Shown here piece by piece: positions 10,903-41,500 of a stretch of DNA of 64,000 bases (positions are counted from its first letter, which is position 1; every line of letters begins with the position of its first letter). A model generated the notes under the pieces. The model was not told where the DNA came from. It saw nothing but the letters and a program-made list of their open reading frames with translations, and ran no database searches. The DNA comes from Oryzias latipes (taxonomy: Eukaryota > Chordata > Actinopteri > Beloniformes > Adrianichthyidae). Location: positions 8,572,950-8,636,949 of the forward strand of contig NC_019872.2 in the NCBI RefSeq assembly GCF_002234675.1, read 5' to 3'. A program made the position numbers and the translations under genes.

Positions 10903-13900
10903 TTACATCATTATCCTCTTGTTCTGCTGGAACATGGAAACCAGTGTTGAATTTTTACAGCTTGTGTTGCTTTGGGTTTCTCTTCTGACACGTGGAAGGC
11001 GAATCTTCTCCATCTTGGATTCTATCTTATTGTATGGACAAACTTTTAGATGCTCCGAGATGGACGGCACATTTCGGAAACACCAAGCATCCACAGGAGA
11101 AAACAAAGTGCTGAACTGCCAAGCCTGCAGAGATGAGCAAATGTTGAAAACATTTTTGGTACATGTTACATTTCCTTCCTAATAAGGCGACAGCTCATAT
11201 CTTTTCCCAACACATCAATAATGTTCAGGCCCTGAATTTGAGGAAAAACGAGACAATTATGGAAAGTAATTCAGGACCAAACTCAAACTTTTTCTCTTTT
11301 TTTTAAAAATCTCTTTATATTCAAACTTTTTTTCTTCTTTTTACAACTAATGCACACCAGGAATCCAAAACAAAAAAAGAAATTTCTTCCTGTTCTTGCC
11401 ATAAACCAAGGTAAATCAAATGTGAAATTTCCTCCAAAGACTGCGGGCAAATTTAAAAAAACCTGAAACCTTAAGGGCGAGGGGATCATCTTGACTCAAA
11501 GGCTGAATCCAAATTCGTCCGGCTTCCCCCTATCCCTCTAATTGTGAGGGCATTTGGAGGGATGGGGTGTTCCAAATAGTTTTTTCTGAAAGGGCTCTGT
11601 GGCGAAAGTAATCCGACGATAAATGTTTTCTTTACGTGGGTGTGCTCTGAAGCACAGAAGTTTACACGTAAATGTAAGTAATGATTTTTGTTTTAGCATG
11701 ACTTTTTAAAGTTATAAAACTGATGTCATGCATTTTCTGAGCGCTGGCAGCTCCGCGCTAACGCGGATGACCGGTGACTGTTGATGATGTCAATAGTTAG
11801 GAGTGATGTCCAAATGAGAAGACACTATTTTTCCATAAAGATATGTTTAAAGGGCTAAATGCAGAGGTAAGGAGAAGCTACAGGGGAAGAATTCAGATTT
11901 GGCCACAGTTGACATCAGCATGTCATGAAAGTGATCGGTGTTTATGCACCTGATCTACTAAAGGAGACAAAAAATCTATTATGGACTTTACCTCTAATCT
12001 CTGTAGAGGAGGACACCTAAAATCTACTGTGGCAGTAAATTTCAGACCGCTTCCACAACTTTTCCGAAAGAAGTATTGACTTGTCACAAAGGGCCTGATT
12101 CAGACAAGTGTTGCTTTAAAAATGATGAAAATTGAAGCCAAAACGCTGCCAGAGAGTAATATTAAAACTTACTTTATCCAATTAATGTAGGATCAAAAGC
12201 TCTGTGCTTGTCTTGCCCACTTAAGCAGATTGCTTGAGACCCCTGAACTTGTGCGGAAGATGGATGCCACCTTGGAGCAAGTTTCTGCCCAGATTTGAGG
12301 GAAGACTGGGCTAAATTCACCCACTTCTCATTCGGATCAATCTCTGCCTCACACAAAGCGAAGAGCCAGTCAAGGACTTTGCCGGCAGTACAAACAACCT
12401 GCTGGCGCCCAAAAGTATTTTATCTAATCAGACTCCCCGAAGGAGCTATGGACAACTGTCCTTGGCTCCACCAAAACAAAGCCGCTTCTACAGAGTGGAC
12501 TACAGCAGCTGTTCTTGAGGGTTGATAACTGCAACTCACCCCCTCCCTGCTTGTCCTCGGCTTACCAACCCCCTCCCTACCTCCTCTGTGAGCTGCCCGG
12601 AAGATGTGCCTGGCTCACGGAGCTGCACCTGATGGACAGACTCACGGGGGGCCCCCCACTCCCGTCCACCACCGTTTCCCCCCTGAGCCTCATGTACTGT
12701 GTCTTTGTCTGAATATGTGCTATTTGTGTTTAAACGGTGTAGTTTTTTTCTTGTATCAACACATTGTACGCAGTGTAGGGATACGACTTTTTTTTGTCAC
12801 CAAACCCAACCCCCGGCCCTCTTCGTGGTCCATCTGCATGCCATACAAAGGTGCGCCGGCGCAGGTCATCTAAGGCGCTCGGCTGCATTGACCTCAGTAA
12901 CCTCTCGAGATGTGTGTGTGTATCCTGTGTTGCTGTTTGTCTGACCTTCTTCATCGAGATGTACTGGAACTGAGTTTCTCCTTGTTGGGATTAATAAAGT
13001 TTTCATTCATTCATTCATTCATTCATTTAGACTAAACACATCATGTGACCTGATAGCATAAACAAAATGAGCGTATTGGTCATTTTAGTTCATGTCACAC
13101 TCCAATAAATGGGGAAAAAAAACATTAAAAATATTAAGTCTGACACAGAACCAGGCAAAAGTAAATATGTATGTAGTTATAACCTTACACACCAAAATAG
13201 GACAAACATGAATCTTGACAGAGGCTGTCATCTTAAACCAAAATTTATTTTGATCCCGCTTACACTATACAACCCTAGCGACACAAGACCATATTGACTG
13301 CACTCCGCATTGTTGAAACAACTTCAAGCACTTTAACTCCCAAGATTTAAAAGAAAAAAATCTAGAATAATCCCAGAGTATGTAATCCTGAGCCTCTTAT
13401 GATCACACTTACCTTCTGCTTCACCTTCCACTTGATCTTTCCATGTGAGGACGTCTTCTCCCAGCAGAGGGTGACCATCCCTCTCTCTTGCAGCAGAGAC
13501 GAACACACCTGCCTCATGAGGGGGGACACCAAGGCCAGCTGGGACAGGGACAAGCTGTCCAGGAAACTGGCTATATGGCATAGGACCTCATACGGAAGTG
13601 AACTTAAAGAGTCATCTCCTCTTTCATTTTGACCTCGTCTCCTCTTTTGGGCGTCGGAGGAGTCGGTCATAGACACAGGAACAGTGGGATGCAGGCCGAA
13701 GCAGCCCAAATCCGGACTGAAAAGTAGGATGAACTTAAATATTTGGTTTTTATTTAGAAATATTTACAATAAAACTTTAGGAAAATGAATCCTGTGAGTG
13801 AGATACATGTAAACCCCTTATTGTATTGTATTGTATGTAATTTATGTAATATTTTGTTGGTCTCTATACATGGATGCAGTTTAGAAGACTTGTGTTTATT

Positions 13901-16900
13901 TGGCCTTGTCTCTACTTAACTTTTCTTTTCCTTTGAAGTGAAATCTTCCTTAATTTTAATGGACTGTGCCAATGATAATTGTGATAGTTGTGCACAATGT
14001 ACTTGGTGGCTCACACTAAACCCAGGGAAGGGGAGTAAATTTCTGCTTAGCAATAGTTTGGTTTGCATGAATAGTTTGATATTTAATGTTAAATAAAATG
14101 TAGGAAGTTGTTTTAGTCATTTAGCAGTTCATTTTGTAAAACTGTTATGGAAAAATCATTTTCATCACAATTATTATCACAATTTTATGTGTTTTCAACA
14201 TAACTTTTAGTTTAGAGCAATGGTTTAGCCCAAAGTCGTCTTAAAAGACAGAATTGTGATTTATATATATTTTCTAATATTTTTCTTTTGTAAAATTTGA
14301 CTTTTTGACCATTGAAAATAAAGAATATAAAAAGTAGGAGTTCTTAAAAAAATCTGACTAAAGCAAGGATGGTTTCCCATTTTTAATCTTACAAAACTGT
14401 TAATTAAGAGTTAATGTTAAAAGCTGGCAACAAATGTCTGTATTCTGATTTAAAATATTGATGTTGTTTCATGTATATCCACATTACACATACGTTTTAT
14501 TAAATTCTTGCAATCAATCAAATATTTTCTATACTTGCCATGTTTTGTTTAAACATCTGTGAAAGCAGTAGTCTGTTCGAGTCTGTCTTTGACATCCTGA
14601 GGACAAATCTACATTTCAATGTTAGGGTCTAAATTTTCTAGATTTAAAGCTACAGCTGATGTAAATTCTGCTCATCATTCCTTTTTTTAAGGATCCAAAT
14701 ACAAAAACAACACACAAGATTATTGTTAAAGAGGATTCAGGAAATAATGAAGTTGATTTACTAAACGCGTCATTATCTGTTTGCAGTTACTATCTTGGCC
14801 TTTTCTATCAATGCTTAGAAAACCGTGTTTTTCTTTTTTGTTCTTACTTGTAGTTGACAGTGGCCTCATGAGTTAAAGGCTGAAACCTCCTCTGGTTGTA
14901 GGTGCATCCCAGGTATGCCAGAGGGCATCGCTGCTCAAACCAGCCATTCACGCTCATTTGAATGTCACAGTGGATGTTCCTGTAAACAACCACAAAAGTC
15001 ATCACTAAAACTAAAGTTGATCAATGTCCTTTCATTGGTCATTTTAACATTTGTTAAAATGAATGTTTTCTTTTTTTGATTTAATGTTAACTGTGGGCAA
15101 CATTAAGTTTATTACGTTGACTGCTTTAAAGAAACAGCTTTGCATCTCCATGTCGATACAGGAAACTCACTTATAATGTTTGCCATATTCTCTGCGCTGG
15201 AAAGTGCGTCCACAAACAAAGGTAAAGGTGGAGTTTGCCTTATGGTGACGGCTAGTGACGCCCTCCACTTGCAACTGAAGGTGCAGCTCCAGTGGTTTGC
15301 TTGCAGTCAGGTCAATGAGTGACATGTTTTTCCCGAAAGGAGCGGACTGGAAGTTGAAGGTCTGCGTGCCTTCGTCTGTCAACAGGCTGTCTGAGCTAAC
15401 GGTCTCTGCAATGAGGTGACCCCTACACTCTTTCTCCAAGGAGCATAGCAGGGACGCCTGAACAGTCAAATAAAATGACGTAAAACATTTTGAAGCTAGA
15501 ATGAACATGATAAAAAGCAAAAAAAGACACTTTTCAGACAAAACACACTCACACAAAGGAGCCCATCACAACGATTTCTATTAAAAATGTTTTTCATTTC
15601 TACAAACAGATATAATTTAACAAAAAAAAGGGAAATCTAAGCTAAATTATTGGAATTAACTTTTTGTTATTACAAGAAATACAAACCTAGAAACGTGCAA
15701 TTCATAAATGAGACCGCAAAACCACAAACAAATGAATTAAATGAAACTAATTCGAATAACTTGAGATAGAAAGATTTACTTAAATCGCTTTAAACATTAA
15801 ATCTTACCCAAAAAATTACATGGTTGAATGTTGAAACATTCTAACATCCAGATAAATTACTATATTAAATGGATATTTTTACACTCAGGACCTAAACATT
15901 TGCCTGCCTCATCCACAAAACCAACATTTCCCTCTGATTTTATACAATCTAATGATTTTTGGTGATTAAATTTTAAATTTTAAATCATGCGCATTTAAAT
16001 CTCAGTTTTTGCAGTTTTAAGTCAATTAATCAACCTGGTCTATTCCATTTAAAAAAACTGTTATAAGAAGATTATAATTGTGTAATCTGTGTAGGATTTT
16101 CAACCTCTGTGGTCGACTCAATAGGCCAGTTGTCTCACCTGAACTTCCTCCCACACTGGCATGCTCTCCACCCCCACACCCAGGTCACTGGTATCCACAA
16201 TTTTAGATTCCTTCTTGTAAAATCCAGGGTTGCGGATGCGGCTGTGCCTTGCAGAAAAGCTGGTAGGGACTTTAAAGGTGCGCACTGTGATGATTTTCAT
16301 TGGCTCCACGTGTCCGTACACAAAGGTCTTCTTCGGTTTTACAGCAGAGCACGAGGAAGATGGTGTGGGACATGCACCGGCCACTGCTTTGGAGCTGCTA
16401 GATGCTGCTGCCTCATCCTCTTCTGTCAGAGTATTCAAGCCTTTTCTATTCCCCTTACTCTTTCCTTTTCCTGCCACAGCAGTCGCTTCGGTCTCCCGAC
16501 AGCCACTCATCTCCATACTGAACATGCGCTCCCAGGCATTATAGCTTTCCAAATTATCAGGATCCACATTTGAGGCCCTGGCAATAGCCTCCCTTTCTTC
16601 CTGAGTGAGTACAGGCTGGTTTTCGACCTCACCATCATCTTCACTCTCGTTCTCACTGGGGAGGTTGATGTTAAACTTGTTAAAAGACTCCCAAAGTGTT
16701 TGACTTGCTTCTTCTGCAGCTGCCCTCTCTGCTGCCTCCTTGTCCTGTGAAACTTTTTTCTTCTTCTCTTTTTCTTTTCTTCTTTCCTCTTCTCCATCCT
16801 CTTCCTCTACACTCTGAAGCAGCTCCGGGAACAGATTCTTCATTTTTATGGAGTGAAACAGCTGCTGCTGGTCTTTCAGGGCCAAGCCCAGGTCAAGACA

Positions 16901-18410
16901 TTCACTTTGCTCTTTCAGCAAGTTCTCATGCAGCTCTGTGTTGGGATGAGAATGAGCATCGTTGACCGGCCAGCGGTTCCACTCCATGGAGCAGCACACC
17001 ACGCTGGCTGGACACACCTGGAGGTGGGCTGCCCTGGAGGAGCGCGGCAGCTGGACCGGACAGCCGTACTCTGCATTGAGGCAGGGCACTCTCACGTTGG
17101 GACAGAGCAGCAGGTGATCCTCCTCCTTGCACAGGTGGAAGAGGGCGCCGCAGAGCAGACGGCAGGGGATCAGCGCACAGCACACTGAGGCCTCCACCCG
17201 AGCCCTGCAGCATCGGCTGTAACAGGAATCGCAGTGGACGTGCTGCCGCTGCCTGGAGGCTCGAGAGCGATGACTCTGACCGAGCCAAAATGAAAAAGGA
17301 TTTTCATTCATGCTGCATTAAGTTCCAAAAAATTAGGTTCAAAAAAGAATTATGAGAGACCTAAAAAACATAACAACATACACTCACTAGCCACCTAATT
17401 AGGAACACCTGTCCAACTCCTTGTTAACACAAAATTGTAATCAGTGAATCACACGGCAGCAACTGGGATTGTTACCCACAAGCATCTCTAGGGTTTACAG
17501 AGAATGGTCCAGAAAAGAGAAAACATACAATGGCCAGCAGTTCTGTGGGTGGAAATGCCTTGTTGATGCCAGAGGTCAGAGGAGAATGACCAGACTGGTT
17601 GCAGCTGACAGAAAGACAACAGTAACTCAGATAACCACTGGTCACAACCAATGTCTGCAGAAGAGCATCTCTGAACGCAGAACACGTCCAGCCTTGAGGA
17701 AGATGGACTCCAGCAGCTGAAGACCACTCCGGGTGCCACTCCTGTGGCATTTGGATGATTGAGTCAGAATTTGGCATCAACAACATGAAAGCATGGATCC
17801 ATCCTGCCTTGTATCAACGGTTCAGGCTGGTGGTGGTGGTGTAATGGTGTGGGGGACATTTTCTTGGCTCACTTTGGGCCCCTTGGTACCAACTGAGCAT
17901 GATTACAACACCACAGCCTATCTAAGTGCTGTTGCTGACCATGTCCATCCATTTATGACCACAGTGTACCATCGTCTGATGGCTATTTCCAGCAGGATAA
18001 CGCACCATGTCATAGAGCTGGAATAACCTCGGACTGGTTTCTTGGTAATGTCAATGAGTTCCCTGGACTCAAATGTCTTCCACAGTCACCAGATCTCAAC
18101 CCAATACACCACCTTTGGGACATGGTTAAACGGCAGATAGGCATCATGGATGTGTAGCTGACAAATCTGCAGCAACTGTGTGATGCAATCATGTCAAAAT
18201 GGACCAAATTCTGTAAGGAATGTTTCCAGTACCTTGTTGAATCGATGCCACAAAAGATTAAGGCAATAGGGGCTCCAACCAAGTACTAGCAAGGTGTACT
18301 TAATTAAGTGGTCGGTTAGTGTTACAATAAAAATAATTTTCCCGCTAACAAGTGAAATAATTATCAATGGTTTGAGGTTTTTTTTTACACAGAGACCAAA
18401 ATCTTACCAT
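10903..18410 (-). CDS. fbxo40: FBXO40-type F-box protein, minus-strand copy
   Basis: Coding exons on the minus strand: 18410-18408 (ATG only), 17275-16139, 15457-15171, 14979-14848, 13716-13413, 11124-10903. They total 2085 nt and give 694 aa with consistent phases. Residues 2 to about 100 form a cysteine/histidine-rich TRAF-type zinc finger. A long acidic and Lys/Glu-rich stretch follows. The F-box lies at about 553-598 (motif DSLSSLPYEVLCHIASFLD), and a conserved tail contains SEHLKVCPYN. Human FBXO40 is about 709 aa. In the family it is a muscle-enriched substrate receptor of an SCF ubiquitin ligase, reported to target IRS1. The start was chosen because the same ATG-at-the-donor layout occurs in the plus copy. 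A 5' UTR exon appears to span 18464-18408. Intron 1 holds a Tc1-like relic and the last intron holds a MITE and a LINE-like tail. Confidence 0.9.
11501..11904. mobile_element. Short inverted-repeat element (MITE-like)
   Basis: The left end (GGCTGAATCCAAATTCGTCC) and the reverse complement of the right end (GGCCAAATCTGAATTCTTCC) match at most positions, and similarity continues inward with CCCTATCCCTC-like text. The element is about 404 bp with no open frame. I could not define a target-site duplication, so the superfamily is unknown. It lies in the last intron of the minus-strand FBXO40 gene. Confidence 0.45.
12440..13032 (+). mobile_element. Non-LTR retrotransposon-like 3' end with ATTC tail
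   Basis: A GC-richer block unlike its surroundings runs into GGGATTAATAAAG and then a run of ATTC units (about 12998-13027). This is how many fish LINE 3' ends terminate. No reverse transcriptase motif remains. The left border is a guess based on the change in base composition. Confidence 0.45.
17381..18321 (+). mobile_element. Internally deleted Tc1/mariner-like transposon
   Basis: The ends are imperfect inverted repeats, with CACTCACTAGCCACCTAATT on the left facing a related inverted copy at about 18290-18321, and TA next to the left end. Inside, the plus strand keeps pieces of a Tc1-type transposase: the end of the helix-turn-helix region near 17490, the GQRRMTRLV segment, and the text for the catalytic half up to the C-terminus near 18290. 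Length is about 940 bp, shorter than an intact member, with deletions at the N-terminal region and near 17745. It lies in intron 1 of the minus-strand FBXO40 gene, opposite to the gene. Confidence 0.8.
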
Positions 18411-18464
18411 CTTTTTAATCTTCTCCCATTAAGTTTCCTAATGTGAAGCAACACACTGATCCCC

Positions 18465-19060
18465 CTGTAGGAAAAGAGGACACCTTTACTTTCTAAGACT
18501 CTGGGATCAATCCCCAAAACAAACAGAAACAAACACACAATGACTGAAAGTCTTATGATTTAAAAAAGGAACAATCTGCTTTTGCCTTACCTATCTGACT
18601 TTCCAAGAAGAGAACCGCTGACTGAACTGCCATGTGCATTGAAAGATCCAGTGTTTGTGTTAAGTATGTGTTATAAATAGAGCCGGGGCACTGACTGAGC
18701 AATGTTGCACAGGTGGTCAGACACGTGGTTTAGGTTAACAGCCCTCCAATCCATTCCAATAAAAAGACGGATTCATAATATGCTGCTGTCGTTGGCCGAC
18801 ATTGGTCACCTTAGGGCTTTAGACTCGACTCAGAGATTCATTCATAAATAAACAGTGTCCTCTGGTGGAGATTTAAGTCGCTCAACCTTTTTCCAGCAGT
18901 CAATTCAAATTTTAAGAATAAAATAATTTAATAATACTTTCCTTTAACCAAGATTGTGCAGGTTTGTGTAAACTTTTAACATTACTACAGCAAAGTCAAA
19001 CTGAGGGGGTGTTATTTTTTCCTCCGGAACCTCTTGGATATTTCTTGTCTAATTTTAACC
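18465..19060. promoter_or_regulatory. Putative shared divergent promoter of the two FBXO40 genes
   Basis: This is the region between the 5' UTR exon of the minus gene (ending at 18464) and the probable first exon of the plus gene. It contains TTATAAATAG at 18671-18680, which fits the MEF2 consensus and could also act as a TATA element. It also has E-boxes CAGGTG at 18710-18715 and CACGTG at 18722-18727. These motifs suit muscle expression, which is known for FBXO40. Function is inferred from motifs only. Confidence 0.5.
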
Positions 19061-19139
19061 TGCCAGTTAAAGGACGCACACTCAAGGACTTGGAGCTACT
19101 TTGTAAAACCTAAGAGACAAAAACAACACGTCTGAGCTG
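19061..19139 (+). other. fbxo40: Probable 5' UTR exon of the plus-strand FBXO40 gene
   Basis: A strong donor (GAGCTG then GTAAGACA) lies at 19139/19140, upstream of the start-codon exon 19757-19780. The beginning of the exon cannot be seen from sequence, so the left coordinate is approximate. Confidence 0.4.
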
Positions 19140-19777
19140 GTAAGACATGTTTAATTCATCTTGGATTTTGTCTAAATATGTTGTGTCTCCTCATCTGGAG
19201 AAATTGCTGTTGACATGATAGCTAAAAACTGGTTATAGTCTTGTTGTTTTGTTTAATCTTTTTGGGGTTTTAAGTTGTTTTAACCACACACATTTACTCT
19301 TTTCTATAAAATCATTCAAATCAGCAATAAAATACACTTCTAATCTGTTTATCTGCAAGGTAGCTTGGTAGGAAAGTGTTTGTATCAGCTTTGGATTTTA
19401 TTCTGCTGTTATTTTCAGTTAAAGCACAGATCTGTACATTTTATTTAAATGGCTTTGATTTATTCCCTTCTTTTTCAGGACAAAAACAGCGCGTAACATT
19501 CATCAAACTTTACCTGGAGGATATAAGATTCAGTTTCTTTCTGATCAGTCAATTAAACCTTTGCTTATTGTTTCTGAAGTTAACACAGAATCTGTGATTC
19601 TGTTTTTTTAACCAATTATATTATAATTACCAATTGCCACCGTTCTGTTAATTAAGGTAGAAAGAAGCAAGAGGGAAGGGATTTCTGACCTTTGTCAGAT
19701 TGTGTTAGATCTGAAGGTGAATCACACCCTTCTTTTTTTTTGTCTTTTTTCCGCAGAGTCACAAAAAGCAAGAAACC

Positions 19778-22700
19778 ATGGTGAGTGGAATTCTTTTATT
19801 CTTGTGAAAAAGTGAAAAACACAGACCTAGATCTACACAGCAAAATAACATTTCCTGTTGAAAAACAATGGTTTTGGAAATCAGATTTAATCTTCTGGAT
19901 TGCAAAAAAATGTAAAAAATTAAAGTCACACTAGATAGCAGAAACCCTGGATGATGCTGACTTATTTGGAGAAACAAAAATGGGTAACTGGAGGTAAACA
20001 AACAGATATTTGGAGCTTAAGGAGGCCTCAGGATCCCTCTGACCAGTGGAGTAATGGGGATATCAGAGAGAATCCTCCCAACAGATCTCCTAGGAAGAAG
20101 ATTAAATTGGAGGTATTAGCTCAGAGAGCTTATATAGAATACTCGACTACTAACTCCAGTCCAACAGGCAAGGTTCAAATCCAAATATGCAAAAGTAGAG
20201 GTCAGGGCTTTGGGCAAAACTTATTTGGTCACAGCATACAGGTCAAAAATTGCAAAAAGGCACACAAGAATTGACAGGCTGGAGGATAGGCTACCAACAC
20301 TTCACACTGTAGCACCAGGTGAAGACAGAGAGCAGTTTAAGTAGAGGGAGACACAGGTGAAGTGAGTGAAGAATTTACCGGTAACAGGAACCAGTGCAGA
20401 CAGCAGAAAAGGAGAGGAGCTATTCTAAGAATATGATTGTAAATGAATAAATATCTCTGGCATTCTAAAAACAATGAAGTTGGTGTTTTCTGCTTCATTT
20501 TGGCTCCTACAGAGTCATCGTTCTCGAGCCTCCAGGCAGCGGCAGCACGTCCACTGCGATTCCTGTTTCAGCCGATGCTGCAGGGCTCGGGTGGAGGCCT
20601 CAGTGTGCTGTGCGCTGATCCCCTGCCGCCTCCTCTGCGGCGCCCTCTTCCACCTGTGCAAGGAGGAGGATCACCTGCTGCTCTGTCCCAACGTGAGAGT
20701 GCCCTGCCTCAATGCAGAGTACGGCTGTCCGGTCCAGCTGCCGCGCTCCTCCAGGGCAGCCCACCTCCAGGTGTGTCCGGCCAGCGTGGTGTGCTGCTCC
20801 ATGGAGTGGCTGCGCTGGCCAACTGACGACACAGACCCACATGGCTTCAAAGCCCTGCAGGACAATGTTCTGGAGGAGAGTGCAGCTCAGAACGGAGCTC
20901 TGGATGTTGCCATGTCTTTGGTTGATCAAACAGATCTGTATGAACGCCTCAGAATGAAGCCGCTCTATCCAGAGTTGATGGAGGAGGATGAGGAGGAAAT
21001 AAAGGAAGAGGAGAGGAAGGAGGCAGCAACAGGATGGACGGTCAGCGAAGAGCAACCTCAAGATCCAAGTCAAGGTTAGTTGGGATAAAACAAGAGTTGG
21101 AGTTTTGATTAAATGTTACAATCTGAAGAAAAATCGATTTTTGTCTTTAACAAAGAATGTTTTTTTTTTTTTTTATTGAGCACAAGTTTAGCTGCATGCA
21201 CAAAGTCAACAGTTTCAGTCAGAGAATTTCTTAATTTAAGATTATCTATATGCTAACCTAAAGTGAGGACTGGTGCACTCAGTTTTGGTTCAATTTTATG
21301 GTTCAAGCTACTCTATTTTAATGTGGGTTAATATGGACAATTTCCATAGCTGCAAGTTTTCCTATCATTAATATTTTAAATTAAAATTAAAAAAATTAAA
21401 TTAACTGTTAATCATGTAAATCCAATCAATAAGCCCTCCCTTAAAATCAAACATCCAAGTAATTTTATTTTAGAAACCTAAATAAAATAAAATAAAAAAT
21501 GTGTCTAAATATTTTATCTGAATACACACAATGATATTGCAAATGAGCACCAATTTAAACTGTAACAAACATCATTCCATTTTCTTTTTCTACAGGACTC
21601 CCCCCAAAAAGTGCATTTGAGAGCATCGGTGTGGAAGAAGTAGCACAGAATAGTTCCAAACAGGGTTTGGTCTTTAACAAAGAGAAGTTCAACCTGATGG
21701 AGATGATGTTTAGCATGGACAAGGGGGGCTGCACTGTTGCTCAGGAAAAACTAGAGACCGAAAGGCAAGCCCGGTCCTCTGGAGAGAAGGGAATCAACCG
21801 CCATGGCAGAGATCCAGAAGAGGCTGGGATGCAGGACAAAACAAACGCAACTCGCACAAACTTAGAGCCCGATACTTCTGCTGCTGCCACAAACCTCAGT
21901 GAGCACGACACAAGCAGGACCGGGCAAGCCCCGTGGCAAGAGGGGGTTCTGGACCGCCTCGGGCAGGAACTCACCCCTCAAGAGTACAACATGTATGTAG
22001 TGCATCACGGCCGCATGCTGCTTGCTTTTGGACAAATTGAGGCCTGCACTCCGAGGGAAAAAGACTTCGTCTACGGCAGCCTGGAGCCCATTCCAGTGCA
22101 GACTGTGCGCACTTTCAAGGTGATGATTTCAAAATACTGCTATGTTTTTTTGCCAATGTTTGAGAAAAAATGTGGAGTCATCTTATTGTTTGTCTTTTAT
22201 CCATGTTGTTCCCAATGTTCAATTATCCATGCACCTGAAATCTGAAAACTCCAGGTTACTGATTGATAATCTTTTTATTTGAACAGGTATTGAGTTAAAA
22301 GGGAAAATGCTAACTGGTAATATTTGGAAAATGGGTTTTGAGCCAGATCTGAACTGCTCCCTAAAGCAGAAATTATCAGTTTTTCTAAGGGAAGCTGGAG
22401 ACAGACAGTCAAGCGTGAAGTTCCTCATATTCCCTGGAAGATTTTGGGCATTATTTTTTCTTTAAATGTCGTTACAAAATAAGGAATTGTTGTTTTTTTT
22501 GTATTGTTTTTGTTTTTTTCATAAAACCATTTCTTGTGCATCACCCTTCTGCCTGTGTCAATTCTAACTGAGAAGAAACTTCCTGGTTGAATAAAAGTAA
22601 TTTCAAGTCAAACCTTAACAAGGAAATAAATCATTTTGAACTTGAATGTAGAATCAAATAGTCTAAGTTTTGGGGGTCCCATTATAAAAGTCACAACCTT

Positions 22701-25700
22701 TCACAGGACGGTTGATTTCAGTTGTGGAAGCAAATTTGTGTCATTAAGAAATTTGTTTTGATAATCCCAAAAACATGTTTTAATGAAGTTTATTTGACTA
22801 CTAATCAAATATTAGCAAATTCCATTTTTAATTTCTGTAGAAAAAAAGACCAACTACCTCAAGTGAAGAATTGTGGGGATCTTCTTAAAATAAAATAGAG
22901 CGTAAGTGTGACAGGTAATCCAGACAGGTTTGTTTTGAAGAGAAGACTCAGGTGTAAGGTCTGCCAGTTGACCGTGTTTTAATTCAACTGTAATCTGAAT
23001 TAAAAATGTAAAATAAAAAATGGACACATTTTTTTGGCAAAAAGTTTAGAAAGTAATTTTAGTTTTTGAATTTTCTCCCAAATTGTCTTTTAATGGGCAG
23101 ATCCCTGACAGCTACCACTACAGGGAGCGGGTCCACAAGTACGACACAGCTGTTCGTGTGCAGACTGAACATTGCAGCGTCGACACCTCTGACCTCGAAG
23201 TGAGCGAAGACACCTGGTTTACAGACGAAGCCAAAGCCACCCTCCTGGGCTATGCTGAGCAGGCTGTTATGGGTCACAAGGTACAGAATGCACGTTGAAC
23301 CATAGCATGCTTTGCTAGCTGAATTTAAGTGAATGAAAACGTTCTGACTTGTGCAAACAGTTTATCATTGAAGCAACATGAGGTGATGGTCTGTTTTGTT
23401 GCAGATCAGTGAGACTAAAGGAGCAGATGGACTTTATGTTGATGTAGGAACGCAGACACACTCTTTCCGCTCTGCACCCTTCAAAGGGAAGACAACACTG
23501 GCTGAGGTGATGGCGGGCAGACCACTAAAGCTTCATCTGCAGCTGCAGGCGGAAAGCGTGAACAGCAGAAACAATCGAGCAAGCTGCGCCTTTACATTTA
23601 TCTGTGGTCACACCTTCCACCGCAAGGAATATTCCACGCACTTCAGGTGTTCATTTATCAGAAATGTTTAATAACACCTTGTATTTAGACACACTGAAGC
23701 ATCTTTTTACTTACAGGAATGTGCACAGTGACATCCAAACGTGTTTAAGTGGATGGTTTGAGCAGAGATGCCCCCTTTCCTATTTGGGATGCACATACAG
23801 CCAGAGGAGATTTCAACCCTCCTCACAGGATGCCACTGTCACCTACAAGTGAGCGCACATTTGGTTTGCTGGGCTGTTGATCGGCTTTACTATATATATA
23901 TATACTGTTACATTTCCATCATCCTTGGAAGAGTAAGAGAAGCATTCAGGTACAAGTTCTGACCTTGAGGTTTGCATTGTAATTTTGCCCCCTATAGTTT
24001 TTTGTGTTGTTCATCAAATTACACTGAAAAAAAAAGTTTACACATTACCAAAGTACCAAAGCGCAATTCATGCTAATATGTGTGTTTTGCCACTGGCACC
24101 CAACACATAAAACTTACTAATTAGAGTCATATGCCAATGCAGAAGACTGCATAGAGGTGTAGTGGTTTGCACTCTCATCTCACATTGGAAAGGACGTGCC
24201 TCAAATCCCAGCTGGATCCCTCCCATGTGGGAAAGTGGATGTACAACTGCACTTTTGATTTTACATTTTGTTTCAAGTATTCAGATTTAGATTGTTGGTC
24301 CCTTTTAAACCCTGCTCAATGAGGGGCAATTCACTAACAAATTCACTCACTTTTCTTTGACAAATTGTAAAAACCTAAAATCTAAAATCACATTCTGATG
24401 TCCCTCCACCACAACGTAGCTCAATTCCTTAAAAAAGTCTCACTCTGATCATCTTTTGATCTATTGTAAAGGCGTTCCCATTGGTCTTATAATTATTATT
24501 GTTATGCCTTTTCAGCCAAAATCAAAAAGCCTGTGTAATTTTCTAGGACCTAGTTTCTGCAGAGCAGTAGTAGTTCAGTAGAATTTGACTTCTGAGTTGT
24601 GGGTGTTAATTTTGGCAGGGAGTAATCCCAGCCCTGCCTCCCAATATCTATCTTTACACTCACAAGCCCCAATCTAACTTGCAACAAAAATAGTGAGAAA
24701 TATTGGAGTTATCCAGAGGTACAGTTATGAGCCAGATACCAGCTCGGACGAGGAAAACAAAGACGGACACAGATGTAATTATCTGCAAGTAAGTGCATCA
24801 GAATGGGGCGGAACAGGAAGCTCATGGCCCATCAAACAAAAACATTTCCATATAAAAAAAATTTTTTCTAAAGGAGCAAAGCAGCCAATCAGGAGCTCTG
24901 CATGGGGGTCACTACTACAAGTTTTTTAAATGACATTTTTTCATCTGCTCTGATTCTCAACAATTGGAATAAAGAAGTACTCAGAAATGCAATATTGAGC
25001 TTAAGTTTCTTCATAAACGTTTGCTGTCATCCGATAATGCCACAAGTGTTAATAACACAACAGAATCATCCAATTTCAATGGAGTGGGTCATGATAACAT
25101 TATAAAGCATTGCCAATAATGTTGTCAGTAGCCGCAGAACTAGTGGAAACTCTTTTATTATTGAAACTCTTTATTAAGAGGACTAATTATATAACCACTG
25201 ATATTGTTCAGAAACAAAAAAATAGAAAATTGGCTAACTTTGTTGCTAACAGTTACTGATGAAGTGAGTCTCTGCAAGACCCACACTCCCCTCCCTGTTT
25301 TTCTTTTTCTCTTTCTCTTGAACAGCCAGCAGCTAAAGTGTTTCAATTTGCGCCCAACCAATTTACCTGGAAGCCCTTCTGACTCCTCCCCTGCTCAGGA
25401 CAACGAGGGCGAACACCTGGGAGGGGACTCTCTTAGCTCGCTGCCTTTTGAGGTGCTGTGCCACATGGCCACTTTTCTGGATAGTCTGTCTCTGTGTCAG
25501 CTGGCTCTGGTGTCGCGGCTCATGAGGCAGGTCTGCTTCTCCCTGCTGCACGAGAGAGGGATGGTCACCCTCCGATGGGGGAGGAAGGCCTGCATGCAGG
25601 GAAGGTTCAAGTGGGAAGCCAAACTGGTGAGGTTTAGTCTGCACTTTTTACTTGACCTTTTTTCTCGTTGTGATTCTGCTTCTGCTTCTCTTCAGGTGTG

Positions 25701-25899
25701 GGAATTCAGTCATCTTTTTTCCTCTGTTGACTCGTGGCGCCAACTTGATATCCCTCCAATGTCTGCTCATCTGAAAGTCTGTCCTCATTACCAGATGCAT
25801 ACTCACAGTGAGCCCATAGCCCTGCCTAGCATGAGTGAAAAACAGATTGGCAGTGAGAAAACTCAAAGGCTTATCAATCTTTTGAAAGAAAAACGATAA
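19778..25899 (+). CDS. fbxo40: FBXO40-type F-box protein, plus-strand copy
   Basis: Coding exons: 19778-19780 (ATG only), 20513-21074, 21596-22119, 23101-23280, 23405-23646, 23717-23848, 25326-25626, 25696-25899. They total 2148 nt and give 715 aa, close to human FBXO40 (about 709). The TRAF-type zinc finger covers residues 2 to about 100, then a Glu-rich segment. The middle region contains SAPFKGKTTL and CGHTFHRKEY, shared in diverged form with the minus copy. The F-box is at about 580-625 (motif DSLSSLPFEVLCHMATFLD), and the tail has SAHLKVCPHY. The expected role is SCF ubiquitin-ligase substrate receptor in muscle. The zinc-finger exon is nearly identical to that of the head-to-head neighbour while the rest is clearly diverged. 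This copy has introns the other lacks, and vice versa. Intron 6 (23849-25325) carries a SINE relic and a MITE. Which fish paralogue number applies to each copy is not known. Confidence 0.92.
24140..24260 (+). repeat. tRNA-derived SINE relic
   Basis: The text GTGTAGTGGTTTGCACTCTC resembles an A-box region and CCTCAAATCCC a B-box region, at the usual spacing for a tRNA-derived SINE head. The following CCATGTGGGAAAGTGGATG looks like a worn body. It is degenerate and not a functional tRNA gene. Confidence 0.45.
24439..25105 (+). repeat. Inverted-repeat element family X, copy 1
   Basis: The left end reads CACTCTGATCATCTTTTGAT. The interior shares TAGTTTCTGCAG, AGCCAGA-C-CCAGC-CGGACGAGG and AATAAAGAA with the copy at 26687-27154, and the left end matches the inverted copy at 27406-27852. 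The right border is approximate. It lies in intron 6 of the plus-strand FBXO40 gene. Confidence 0.5.
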
Positions 25900-28387: not shown

Positions 28388-28575
28388 GTCAGTCATGCTG
28401 ATCATATCCACGCACAAAAAAAGAGACATATGTGATGCAAAAAATAATAGTAATAATAATAATACATGATGCAGTAAGAGCGACTGACCTATATCTGGAA
28501 TGATACACGTTCTAGAGTATCTTCTGTGAATGCTCCAGATGTTTCTCTGCAATCAGGTGGTGCGGGGGTTCGGTG

Positions 28576-31334
28576 ATGGACGCAGAGAGGTTGGAGCAGC
28601 AGGTGGCCAGCGTGGAGCGGGGCATTGTCTTCCTGAAGCGCGAGCACCTGGTGATGCTGAGCGGTCTGCAGCGGGAGATCACGCACCTGAAGAGGCGCTG
28701 TCACGGTAAATGACTCTGCGTCTCTGCGCAGGTCTGCGCCACTCTGCATGCATGCTCACCCCTCTGCTGCGTCTTCCATGTGTGCAGAGCTGAGCTGCGA
28801 GCTGGACTCCAGGTTTCCCAACAGACGCACAGCAGGTGAGTGACCTCCTGCGCTGCAAAGGTGAGAAGCAAATGATATTGCACGTTACAGGTAACAAAGG
28901 CCTGAACTCCTTCCTGTTTGATGGACAGATGAGGTTGAACAGGAATCATGGACTATGATGTTTGCAGTTGATTTTGTGATGTGCAGCAAGAGCAGTGAAC
29001 AGGTGGAGAAGAAGCTAATGGTGGAAGTTTGCCCTGGAAAGGAGAGGAATGAAGGTTAGTCACAGCAAGACAGAGTAGATGTGTGTGAATGAGAGGGACC
29101 CAAGTGGAAGAGTGAGATTACAGGGAGAAGAGACAAAGAAGGAAGAAGATTTTAAGTATATTGGGTCAAAAGTCCAGAGTAATGGAGAGTGAGAAAAGAA
29201 GTGAAGAAGTGAATGCAGGCAGATTGGAATGGGAGGAGAAAAGTGTCAGATGTGATGTGTGATAAAAGACTTTTAGCTCCATTTAGAGGATATGTGTTCA
29301 AGCCTGTGGTAAGACCTGCCATGTTGTTTGGCCTATAGACAATGGCACTGAGGAAAGACGGGAAGCAGAGCTGGAGGTAACAGAGATGAAGATGCTGAGG
29401 TCCTCTTTGGGAGTGACTAGGATGGATAGGATCAGGATTGAGTAGAGAAGGAAGGCATGTCAGAGGTTTGGAGATAAGGTCAGACAGAGATGGTTTGGAC
29501 ATGTCCAGAGGAGAGACAGTGAATATGTTTGTAGATGGATGCTGATCTAGAGCTACTAGGCAAGAGGTCTAGAGGAAGACCAAGGATGAAGGTAGCTGGT
29601 GCTGGAGTACAGGATCTGCCTCTGAACCTATACATTTGATTGCATTGGCTATAACTTGCAGGCAAGAGTTAAGATTTTCTGTTTTTAGGTAACATTTTAG
29701 ATAAAACTCAACTCAATCCTCTGTGTGCTCACGTGATTATCCTGTGACCTATTCCTTAAAATATTTCTAACAATGAGAAGTTTACCTGACTTAACTGACT
29801 TTATGTTTTATTATTAAATAACGTACATTTATACGTACATTTATACCATTGTCTGGATGAATCCTCGATTCTGATTGGCCGCTGGGTGTGCATTGAAAAG
29901 TGATAATGCATAATCATAACCGCACACCTAAAAAAGAAGTTCTGGTCACTCACACACCTTAAAGGTTCTAGATGACTGCACTGGCTTCTTTAAAACAAAC
30001 TTTTGCTTCATCATCTGGACAAAAGCAACCGGTAAGAGGTGAACTTTCTGATGCTTTAACCTATCGTGTCGACCAGCATAAAAATCACTTTCCTTTGCCG
30101 CTGTAGTTGAGGTTGGTGCCGGCACAGCAGGGTGTTGTCACGGCAACATGACAAACTGCGGCACACCGTCACAAATAGTCTGCTTTTTGTGAAAAAAATC
30201 GATCTAAACCGCACAAATAACAAGAGCGAAGTACTACAAACTGAATGAATAATTATTTCTTTTGTGAGTGACCATGATATAAGCGGGTTAATGGCCTTTG
30301 AAGTGTGGAATATCAGACATAATGCACTTCGCGGGAGCAACCGTCCATCAGTATTAAGCTTTGCTTTTGTAACATATTGATACTGTACTGTAAAAAGTTT
30401 TTAATTCTTAAAAATACACAATTTCTTGATTCAAAATGAGACTATTATTAAAAAGGGCAGTTTTGTGGAAAAATTAGTCTGTGTTAAGGAAATAACTCAT
30501 TTTTATCCATGTAAGTTTGGTTAAGTCAGAGTTAACATATGTTTGTTTTGAATCCTTAAATAAAAGATGACACAAATGATGTGACAGCTGGAATGCCTGA
30601 ATGTGTGTGATGAGGTGTACACAAGTGTTGTATTGTGTTCATCAGAGGAGGAAGCAGAGCTCGCCGCACGCTGTGAGGCTGCAGAGCGCCTGCTGCAGCG
30701 TCAGCAGCACATGATGGTCTCCACGCGTGGCGAGCTGCGAGCCGGCCGGGCTCGAGCGTCAGCACTTGGTAGGAGTCTCCGGGAGGAGGAGCGGCGTTTC
30801 CTGGAGGAGCTGAAGCAACGGAGTCATAAGATCACGCTGCTGAACCGGGAGCTTCAGCGTCAAAACGTCACCACCATGTCCCTCTGCCACCAGCTCCAAA
30901 ACGCACAGTTAAAACTCTTTCAGCAGCAGCAGGGGGCGGGATCTGCTGCAGGGACGGAGGAGGAGGAGGCCAGAGGGGAGGAAGGAGAAGAGGAGGAGGT
31001 GGACGAAGTAGGTCAGGAAGACTGGTTATTGTCCCCACCTGCACCTGTGTCTCCGGGTCAGGGAAGAGCAAAACACCAGAGGCTTGTGAGCCTGAGGGAG
31101 GAGAGAGTCAGAGCCTGCGTCCCACAGGAGAGAGTGACGTCACCACAGCGGCCTCACTCAATGCCTGACCCCGCCCTCTTTTTGGTGCCGCTCAGATATC
31201 GCCTTCTTCGCCTGGGCCAGCATAGCAGACCTAACGATGGAGATGGTGTCGAGGATGAGTGGGAGGATTTGGAGGACAGCGGGGTGCACAGGAGGGTGGA
31301 CATGGGAGCAGCGGAGGGAGAAACTGCACTGTGA
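28576..31334 (+). CDS. CCDC92/CCDC92B-like coiled-coil protein
   Basis: Coding exons: 28576-28705, 28788-28835, 30646-31334. They total 867 nt and give 288 aa with consistent phases. Residues 1-53 form a heptad-rich helix (MDAERLEQQVASVERG, then FLKREHLVMLSGLQREI). Residues 60-160 form a second coiled coil with EEERRFLEELKQRSHKITLL. This is the signature order of the CCDC92 family, where a similar EKKYLEELK-SHKLTLL block occurs. The C-terminal third is acidic, then Ser/Pro-rich and disordered. CCDC92 proteins are reported at centrioles and cilia; no catalytic domain is expected. Next to it is a CLUH gene, and in human CCDC92B lies near CLUH on 17p13.3, so CCDC92B is the better guess. The second intron holds a LINE relic. 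Confidence 0.8.
28950..29690 (+). mobile_element. Degenerate non-LTR retrotransposon, C-terminal reverse transcriptase relic
   Basis: In broken plus-strand frames one can read DFVMCSKSSEQVE, then LQG-like and FKYIGSKVQSN text, VVRPAMLFGL, ELEVTEMKMLRSSLGVTRMDRIR, and RWFGHVQRRDSEY. This order is that of the C-terminal part of a common fish LINE reverse transcriptase. Several frameshifts and stops are present. It sits in intron 2 of the CCDC92-like gene. Confidence 0.7.
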
Positions 31335-38500: not shown

Positions 38501-41500
38501 GGTTCCTCTTCACCATGGAAATGATTCTGCAATCATCCACCACTGTTGTCTTCCGTGGACGTCCAGGTCTTTTTGCGTTGCTGAGTTCACCAGTGCTTTC
38601 TTTCTTTTTCAGGATGTACCACACTGTTGATTTTGCCACTCTTAATACTGTGGCAATTTCTGGCATGCTTTTTTCTGTTTTCTCAGCTTAATGATGGCTC
38701 CTTTCACCTGCATGGAGAGCTCCTTTGACCACATGTTGTTTGTTCACAGCAAAATCTTCCAAATGCAAGCATGAGTCCTCTAATCAACTCCAGGCCTTTT
38801 ATCTGCTTCACTCATAATAACATAACAATGGAATTGCCCACAACTGCCCATGCAATAGCATGGAAGTCAATTGTCCAGTTACTCACCAGCCCATGAAATG
38901 AAGGGATTGTGTTTAAAAAATGCTTTAGTTTTTCACATTTCATGCAATCTTTTTGTTCAACCCATGGAATAAAAGCTGAAAGTCTGCACTTCAATGGCAT
39001 CTGAGTTGTTTTGTATTTAAAATTCACTGTGGTAATGTACAGAAACTAAATTAGAAAGAATGTGTCTCTGTTCAAATATTTATGGTCCTCACTGTACATT
39101 TTTAGCATTATGTAGCAAAGCATGTCATAATAGGTACACGTCTTCACCTTTAGCACTGTATGTTGTGTAGAATTCCCAACAATAAAAGACTTAATTGATA
39201 TATTTATTAAATAAAACATAAAACTATATTTATTTAAGAATGTTCCAAGTAAATTGTAGCACGTAAAAATTCTATAGAAGATACTTTCTCCACAGATAAC
39301 ATCCTTTTCTGTTCACTTTAACAAAATGTACATTTAAAAAAAAATTCCAAAAACAAAAAATTTAAAAAGCTCGTTCTTGTATGCATAATATCAATCAAAC
39401 AAAGGGCAAAGCAAGGCAAGGCAAGTTTATTTGTATATCACAATTAGTACACAAAGTAATTCAAGGTGCTTCACAAAACAGAAAAATGCATTAAAATGAC
39501 AATACATCATAGAAGTAATCAACGTAAAACTTACTTTAAAAGAAAAGAAAAAAATTGATTTAAAAATAAAGGAAGGAAATGAAAGAAAAGTGCAGATAGG
39601 ACCTTTCAGTCATATACACGGCTAAACAGAAATGTTTTAAGTCTAGATTTGAACATGAACACAGAAGATGCCTGTCTTACGACTTCAGGGAGGCTGTTCC
39701 AGATTTTAGCTGCAGAATATTGAAACGCTGATTCCCCTTGTTTAGTTCTGACTCTGGGAATCAACAGGAGGCCGGCCCCTGAGGTCCTCAGAGTACGAGA
39801 TGGTTCATATGGCACTAACATGTCAGAGATGTACTTTGGTGCTCGGCCATGGAGAGACTTGTACACAAGCAGAGCTGCTTTGAAGTCTATTCTTTGAGGT
39901 ACAGGGAGCCAGTGCAGAGACCTGAGCACAGGACTAATGTGATCATACTTCCTGGTTTTGGTCAGAACTCGAGCAGCAGCATTCTGGATGTACTGACGCT
40001 GTTTTACAGCTCGTTTGGAGAGGCCGGTGAGCAGGCCGTTACAGTAGTCTAACCCGCTGGAGACAAATGCATGAATAAGTATCTCCAGGTCTGGCTTTGA
40101 CATTATGTTTTTGATTTTGGCAATGTTTTTCAGGTGGTAAAATGCCGCTGATGTTACTGACTTGATATGGCTGTTAAAGTTCAGGTCAGAGTCCATGATT
40201 ACCCCTAGATTTCTTACTTGATTTGAGGGTTTAAGAGACAGAGAATGAAGGTAGCTGCTGACACTTTCTCTTTGTTTCTGTGGACTAAAAATAATAACTT
40301 CGGTCTTGTTTGAGTTTAGCTGGAGAAAGTTGTTCTGCATCCACGCACTGATCTGTTGGAGGCAGTGGCTGAGTGAATCCACCGGCCCATATTCACCTGC
40401 TGTCAGTGACACATAGATCTGAGTATCATCTGCATAGTTGTGATAAGATATGTTATTACTGCATATTAACTGCCCTAGTGGCAGCATGTAGAGGTTGAAC
40501 AGAAGGGGTCCCAGGATCGATCCCTGGGGCACACCACAAGTCAAGGCCATGTAGTCTGAGACACAACTCCCAATTTCAACAAAATATTTCCTGTCTTCTA
40601 GATAAGACTTGAGCCAACTTAGGGCAGATCCAGAGATGCCAACCCAGTCTTGGAGTCTGTGCAAAAGGATCCCATGATCAACAGTATCAAAGGCAGCACT
40701 CAGGTCTAGCAGGATTAAGACCGAGACTTTGCCATCATCAGTGTTCAGGCGGATGTCGTTGGTTACCTTGATAAGAGCAGTTTCTGTGCTATGATGGGGT
40801 CTAAAACCTGACTGGAAAACATCAAATGCATTGTTTAATACGAGAAAGTCAGTGAGCTGTTGGTAGACAACTTTTTCAAGGACTTTTCCTAAAAATGGCA
40901 GATTAAAGATAGGTCTGTAATTATTCAGTACAGTGGGATCAAGACCACTCTTCTTCAGGAGAGGTTTCATGACTGCAGTTTTTAAGGCCTCGGGAAATAT
41001 TCCAGATTGAAGAGACATGTTAACTATTTGAGTAATTGATGGCAACACACTGTTCAGGACAGACTTTAGAAATCTAGTGGGTAACACATCACGGCAGCAT
41101 GTAGACGAGCTCAGACGGGTGATGGTCTCTTGGACAGTTTGGTCAGTGACAGGTACAAAGTGAGTCATCTTAGCGTGAGTAGGTGGCCGTTGGATAGTTA
41201 TATGTGTTGTGGAGTTGATGGCTTTTTTAATGCCCTGAACCTTGTCATTGAAAAACACAGCAAACTCATTACATTTAGGGGTGCAAACCAGTTCTATTGG
41301 TAGCTGGGTTGGAGGGTTAGTTATTCTGTTTACTGTTGTGAACAGGATACGAGAGTTGCTGCTGCAACTTCCAATGATTTCAGAGAAGTACCTTTCCCTT
41401 GTTCTGCATAAGATCTGGTTGTAAGCGTACAACTCCCCCTTATACATTCCATAATGAACCTGGAGTTTTGACTTGCGCCACTTGCGCCAAAAGCCAAGTA

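Follow-up and report, generated by a model that had tools for sequence, protein, structure and literature searches.

Recurrent exon-restricted concerted evolution in an FBXO40 gene pair older than crown teleosts

Exon-limited conversion between linked paralogues

The vasopressin and oxytocin genes (vasotocin and mesotocin genes) are old linked paralogues which, in several vertebrates, are near-identical in one domain exon, exon 2 encoding neurophysin, while the exons on either side have diverged (PMC2315648). The same arrangement is found in the linked FBXO40 genes fbxo40.1 and fbxo40.2, the subject of this report, which lie in a 64,000-nucleotide stretch of medaka (Oryzias latipes) DNA (the window) on contig 14 of a 25-contig, 734-Mb genome. 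The kind of event is already known, vasopressin/oxytocin exon 2 being the closest case. In the cow the identity reaches 135 bp into the preceding intron, the two hormone genes lie tail-to-tail in human and rodents (PMC2315648), and common domain function is proposed as the reason for the neurophysin likeness (PMC4432659). The cases differ in that vasopressin and oxytocin are hormone precursors whereas FBXO40 is an F-box protein, and in that the FBXO40 tract takes up the 5' portion of its exon and ends within it, with two separate exons involved. In the coelacanth, a low GC content at third codon positions (GC3) led the authors to question conversion of the hormone genes, whereas GC3 of the FBXO40 tract is high.

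Two teleost cases are also comparable. The long-wavelength-sensitive (LWS) opsin genes of the guppy include paralogues linked in inverted, tail-to-tail orientation at a distance of 3,329 bp, as well as a hybrid sequence (PMC2527612); unlike the FBXO40 pair, however, the LWS duplicates are described as having arisen within or near the poeciliids, and involve a hybrid copy, not a single domain homogenised again and again. Exon 3 of cichlid aqp3a1 and aqp3a2 likewise shows exon-limited conversion between teleost paralogues, but of a 105-bp fragment and in African cichlids only (PMC7408487). Among the entries listed in searches of an open-access library, no title or abstract opening dealt with FBXO40 gene conversion, most subscription papers lying outside that scope. 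In mammals, FBXO40 is described as a muscle adaptor that directs IRS1 to degradation (PMC7672578).

The zinc-finger tract in medaka

The likeness of the two medaka zinc fingers is almost certainly maintained by recurrent interlocus gene conversion between divergently transcribed copies, with the tracts 3.2 kb apart, and the wider pattern is one in which exon-restricted concerted evolution has recurred in a gene pair that predates crown teleosts, not one of a single recent event. A first-pass annotation of the window, made from the sequence alone, had noticed that about 303 nt of exon 2 were near-identical between the copies, with about four differences, and that about 100 encoded residues differed at one. 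Alignment bears this out, with 5 differences in 297 exonic nt (17275..16979 on the minus strand against 20513..20809 on the plus strand, codons 2-100; the 306-nt span originally compared holds 8 because it overruns the border codon) and a single residue difference, Tyr/Phe at site 20, over residues 2-100. Including its intron part, the tract has 8 differences in 316 nt. The similarity appears to start inside the upstream intron, as had been claimed, with a short stretch of 13 matching nt (17294..17282 and 20494..20506) followed by 3 mismatches and the common acceptor CAG, and it ceases abruptly at GAG TGG, the following codon, 101, differing at 3 of 3 positions. The surrounding inverted repeat (16910-17294 / 20494-20878) measures 385 nt, is 90% complementary and has 3,199 nt separating its arms. 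The zf-TRAF_2 domain covers about residues 13-105 in protein numbering, and the tract therefore nearly equals the domain. A search of the medaka genome's own DNA (734 Mb) with the tract gave two matches, which are these two tracts.

Synonymous divergence (dS), proposed at first pass as a check, is unequal inside and outside the tract. In the tract dS is 0.055 (4 synonymous differences, 75.2 sites), whereas outside the proportion of differing synonymous sites (pS) is 0.727, close to saturation (the Jukes-Cantor value, 2.6, should not be read at face value). The two copies differ at 4/51 fourfold sites in the tract against 67/107 outside, synonymous differences in the tract and the rest are distinguished with a Fisher p of about 1.7e-29, and identical residues use the same codon at 94/98 positions against 120/254. 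The run of identical codons was longer than in all 20,000 permutations, likewise when only synonymous choices were counted, and chance is therefore excluded for the tract identity. GC content is 0.642 in the tract against 0.383 in the window, and tract GC3 is 79/99 and 80/99 in the two copies against 300/534 and 311/556 outside the tract and F-box (p 7e-6 and 2e-6), with F-box values of 41/60 and 45/59 (p 0.07 and 0.003). The raised tract GC3 fits the expectation for GC-biased conversion without proving that bias, which is noted as disputed (PMC4432659).

As a matter of general knowledge, short reads struggle with near-identical inverted repeats, and one exon might have been collapsed, or copied into both loci, as an artefact of assembly or annotation. 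This is the least probable of the explanations considered here, and assembly error is rejected on the 5 exonic differences between the tracts, on their unique flanks and unlike acceptor sequence, and on the recurrence of the pattern in the entries of many species.

Concerted evolution across fishes

The comparison with other fishes draws on three protein searches, with the best 120 listed of 726, 910 and 1,129 hits, in which both copies were recovered for many teleosts. The first two gave 239 distinct proteins, of which 160 kept by hand, together with the fbxo40.2 copy of the window, make up 81 fbxo40.1 and 80 fbxo40.2 rows; isoform copies, unnamed entries and near duplicates were dropped, as were some further species, some retained rows are incomplete, and clusters at 90% identity conceal further alleles. 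These rows provide 58 same-species pairs, two of them from O. latipes (rows P0001 and P0122 being treated as one assembly, judged by their close accession numbers), and the wide quartet count omits the second, giving 57 species. Distances were taken over residues 9-100 (tract), 104-690 (rest) and 560-625 (F-box). The 28 tree species were hand-picked for spread after the alignment and per-species distances were known, with the known exceptions Epinephelus, Solea, Melanotaenia and Halichoeres deliberately placed among them. A deeper set has 84 rows and 31 pairs, in which Tachysurus, Alosa and Osmerus each combine two species of one genus. All trees but one are from quick searches.

Trees of the tract and of the rest in related fish, the other check proposed at first pass, disagree as expected under conversion: the tract groups by species and the rest by paralogue. 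In the tract, the paralogue distance is below the mean orthologue distance in 57/58 pairs (means 0.048 vs 0.143), compared with 0/58 outside it (0.493 vs 0.280), and the paralogue is strictly the nearest sequence in 33/58 pairs and tied in 6. Sites grouping by species outnumber those grouping by paralogue in 1,572 of 1,596 tract quartets (totals 14,167 vs 293), compared with 3,917 species and 132,851 paralogue sites in the rest without the F-box; the quartets overlap, so that the totals give direction and not independent counts. The tract tree of 28 acanthomorph species has 27 paralogue-label changes, with 23/28 pairs as sisters, and the approximately unbiased (AU) test rejects a single fbxo40.1 clade (p 4e-70, with five sets of identical rows unconstrained). 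The tree outside the tract has two clean clades, with 1 label change, support of 100 and 0/28 sister pairs. Further clear homogenised cases are Cynoglossus, Polymixia and Pungitius, and the Eucyclogobius copies are identical over residues 9-100 with many residues peculiar to the species. In many fishes, the zinc finger by itself will be a misleading guide to fbxo40.1 and fbxo40.2 orthology.

Purifying selection alone, acting on the zinc-finger protein and its codon use, might also keep old copies alike without exchange; between orthologues the tract is indeed better conserved than the rest (0.143 vs 0.280), and His85, Cys89 and Cys96 are invariant across pairs. However, the distance between paralogues within a fish (0.048) is about a third of the orthologue distance for this domain, and equally conserved stretches behave unlike the tract (residues 481-500, orthologue 0.090 and paralogue 0.221; residues 321-340, 0.124 and 0.491). 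The species-specific substitutions common to both copies, the fourfold contrast and the 13 matching intron nt likewise stand against it. Constraint alone is very improbable and, for the acanthomorphs tested, is refuted because the tract groups by species. The first-pass preference for conversion over protein constraint alone is upheld by this grouping and by the dS contrast.

Within Oryzias, both O. melastigma copies carry Arg23, Pro35, Ser37, Tyr47 and Met88, while both window copies carry Cys23, Ala35, Ile37, Phe47 and Val88. Between these two species the tract has 5 species sites to 0 paralogue sites, and the rest without the F-box 1 to 167. Some of the five states are ancestral in one species (e.g. 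Arg23, in 155/161 rows), and a paralogue-specific tract state common to O. latipes and O. melastigma is kept by neither pair. Since the five sites differ by species with the copies agreeing, homogenisation took place on both Oryzias lineages. A single recent event in medaka, either conversion or partial exon duplication without a wider pattern, would match the low tract dS; it is nevertheless highly unlikely, and is refuted by other species, O. melastigma having been homogenised separately and the paralogue being nearest or tied across the pairs counted above. Thus, of the recent conversion proposed at first pass, the conversion stands, and the notion of one recent event gives way to recurrence in an old gene pair. 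As for direction, Cys23 occurs in 4/161 rows (both window copies, fbxo40.1 of another O. latipes assembly and O. sinensis fbxo40.1), and fbxo40.2 of that other assembly has Arg23, as do 78/80 fbxo40.2 rows. This distribution suggests copying from fbxo40.1 to fbxo40.2 in medaka, and Phe20 in the fbxo40.1 of the other assembly suggests the opposite direction, from fbxo40.2 to fbxo40.1.

In a tree without the tract (F-box kept; gar and Huso as outgroups), fbxo40.1 and fbxo40.2 form one clade each, both containing osteoglossomorphs, elopomorphs, clupeiforms, otophysans and euteleosts, with a third teleost FBXO40 clade as sister to the two together. Support in the Shimodaira-Hasegawa-like approximate likelihood ratio test (SH-aLRT) is 100 and 100 for the two clades, 94 for the third and 90 for the fbxo40.1 and fbxo40.2 pair. 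Because both clades span the deep teleost groups, the tandem duplication predates crown teleosts; it is probably younger than the teleost genome duplication, which has been dated to about 350 million years (PMC4166920). The zinc finger of the third clade (P0286, P0324, P0327, P0334, P0344 and others) groups apart from fbxo40.1 and fbxo40.2. Among deep pairs, tract distances are small in Osmerus (0.000), Synaphobranchus (0.011), Electrophorus (0.028) and Albula, Megalops and Anguilla (0.06-0.08), intermediate in catfishes (0.07-0.18) and three characiforms (0.09-0.15), and larger in the weakly alike Alosa (0.16), Arapaima (0.21) and Chanos (0.22). In the 84-row set, the AU test rejects fbxo40.1 monophyly in the tract (p 3e-4).

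Several results weigh against recurrent conversion, or limit its reach. The synonymous comparison covers medaka alone, the other species having been compared as proteins only, and a high GC3 could have other causes. In the tract, 19/58 pairs have some orthologue nearer than the paralogue; Epinephelus, the sole exception among the 58, fails the mean test (0.152 vs 0.142), and the Epinephelus/Plectropomus quartet has 1 species site vs 7 paralogue sites. No species preference is found in 24/1,596 tract quartets, and 5/28 pairs are non-sisters in the tract tree (Epinephelus, Melanotaenia, Mugil and Solea, and also O. melastigma, owing to a pair of identical goby rows placed among its copies). All 6 cypriniform pairs tested (Danio, Cyprinus, Sinocyclocheilus, Pseudorasbora, Triplophysa and Xyrauchen) lack zinc-finger homogenisation, with paralogues at 0.23-0.28 and orthologues of the group at 0.09-0.13. 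The 84-row tract set has only 11/31 sister pairs, and its labels need 20 changes vs 24.4 when shuffled (17/500 as low), so that some paralogue signal persists. In the tract trees, cypriniform fbxo40.1 is a supported clade, while fbxo40.2 is weaker (81) in the 84-row tree and forms no clade in a 22-row tree. Homogenisation in deep lineages other than cypriniforms is patchy.

The first-pass annotation had taken the remainder of the two proteins, F-box included, to be clearly diverged. This is correct for medaka, but F-box divergence is lower than that of the remaining sequence (dS of 0.81 and 0.85 for two comparison windows, against at least 1.03 or saturation in every other window wholly outside the tract), and many other fishes have it homogenised. 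The F-box exon is a second homogenised segment in many acanthomorphs and is paralogue-specific in Oryzias. Among the 28 acanthomorphs its tree has 25 label changes and 17/28 sister pairs (AU p 0.011), compared with one clean split for each of two control stretches of similar length, and quartet totals are 5,515 species vs 249 paralogue sites, Oryzias excepted (0 vs 11). By distance the signal is weaker, the paralogue being below the mean orthologue in 42/56 pairs and strictly nearest in 2. Polymixia, Gasterosteus and Xiphias have copies that are alike even in the loose linker preceding the F-box.

At the 3' border of the zinc-finger tract, the share of species with an identical paralogue residue (57 readable pairs) falls from 1.00 at Trp100 to 0.07 at 101, where 54/57 readable fbxo40.1 partners have Asn and 53/57 fbxo40.2 partners Leu. 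Almost all of the acanthomorph pairs tested have this border, at codon 100|101. The residue of the other gene is found in four species (Leu101 in Centropristis and Odontesthes fbxo40.1, Asn101 in Dunckerocampus and Pholidichthys fbxo40.2), in which conversion may have run beyond the usual border, in either direction.

Interlocus conversion between linked copies accounts for the tract ends, for the likeness at synonymous sites and for the grouping by species. A break or stalled fork in the GC-rich zinc-finger exon of one copy would be repaired with the other as template, at most about 300 nt being copied per event, in events running in both directions; copying would probably halt at the mismatched flanks, in the intron and at codon 101, and selection would tolerate or favour a common zinc finger while preserving the paralogue-specific linker from codon 101. 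If the zinc finger and F-box serve the same partners in the two proteins, they could be freely common while the middle diverges, in parallel to neurophysin. We lean towards domain-by-domain evolution of the pair, in which conversion keeps the zinc finger, and often the F-box, as a common module, the middle is paralogue-specific, and selection maintains the boundary at codon 101 in almost all acanthomorphs, with homogenisation off in cypriniforms (zinc finger) and Oryzias (F-box). FBXO40 shows exon-limited concerted evolution cleanly, over many species and in a very old pair, with natural on/off contrasts both in the zinc finger (acanthomorphs against cypriniforms) and in the F-box (Oryzias against many other fishes). 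It allows tests of what fixes tract borders (sequence mismatch or linker selection), of whether conversion drives GC3, and of why a ubiquitin-ligase adaptor keeps two modules common.

The gene pair and its surroundings

Coordinates are collected in Table 1. The two genes are head to head, since their start exons point away from one another. The closeness of the copies, which the first-pass annotation held to favour conversion together with their inversion, agrees with the distance between the repeat arms, but inversion is apparently not required. In the database models of Clarias magur and Electrophorus voltai, fbxo40.2 and fbxo40.1 are in one protein, with the two tracts alike, and would therefore be on the same strand; inverted orientation as a requirement is weakened by these fused, annotation-based models.

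Table 1. Positions in the window of the medaka FBXO40 pair and of the segments discussed.
Feature	Positions	Strand	Remarks
fbxo40.1 (copy A)	10903..18410	-	open frame, 694 aa; gene model with GT/AG ends
fbxo40.1 coding exons (6)	18408-18410, 16139-17275, 15171-15457, 14848-14979, 13413-13716, 10903-11124	-	
fbxo40.2 (copy B)	19778..25899	+	open frame, 715 aa; gene model
fbxo40.2 coding exons (8)	19778-19780, 20513-21074, 21596-22119, 23101-23280, 23405-23646, 23717-23848, 25326-25626, 25696-25899	+	
Conversion tract, copy A	16979..17294	-	19 intron nt (13 identical, 3 mismatched, CAG) and zinc-finger-exon codons 2-100
Conversion tract, copy B	20494..20809	+	register as in copy A
Codon 101, copy A	16976..16978	-	AAC, Asn; 3' border
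Codon 101, copy B	20810..20812	+	CTG, Leu; 3' border
F-box exon, copy A	13413..13716	-	concerted in other fishes, not homogenised in Oryzias
F-box exon, copy B	25326..25626	+	F-box_4

Both medaka copies are open frames. Copy A matches the NCBI entry 'F-box only protein 40 [Oryzias latipes]' (694 aa, P0121) with 100% identity and 100% coverage, and copy B matches O. latipes 'F-box protein 40, tandem duplicate 2' (715 aa, P0001) with 97% identity over the full length. The N-terminal TRAF-like zinc finger zf-TRAF_2 (PF15965) is present in both (126.5 and 123.6 bits), and its nearest solved structure by sequence is that of F-box only protein 30 (PDB 2yre, E 2.4e-27). The FBXO40-type F-box, F-box_4 (PF15966), was scanned for and detected in copy B (153.5 bits), and is given in the database row matching copy A. 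The introns differ in position, copy A having one after EVQ (15458-16138, minus strand) and copy B three without counterpart in A, after SQ, TFK and GHK (21075-21595, 22120-23100 and 23281-23404, plus strand); intron gain or loss therefore followed the duplication.

Intron 1 of copy A contains a stretch of ~930 bp (about 17385-18322) with loosely complementary ends, which by eye resembles a DNA-transposon remnant; these ends were not called by the inverted-repeat scan. Downstream of fbxo40.2 lies a coiled-coil-like gene (28567-31331, plus strand), and in the Lucifuga annotation (P0056) the product of this gene is fused to fbxo40.2. A 651-aa open frame further along (39606-41561, minus strand) resembles by eye a reverse transcriptase of the long interspersed nuclear element (LINE) type.

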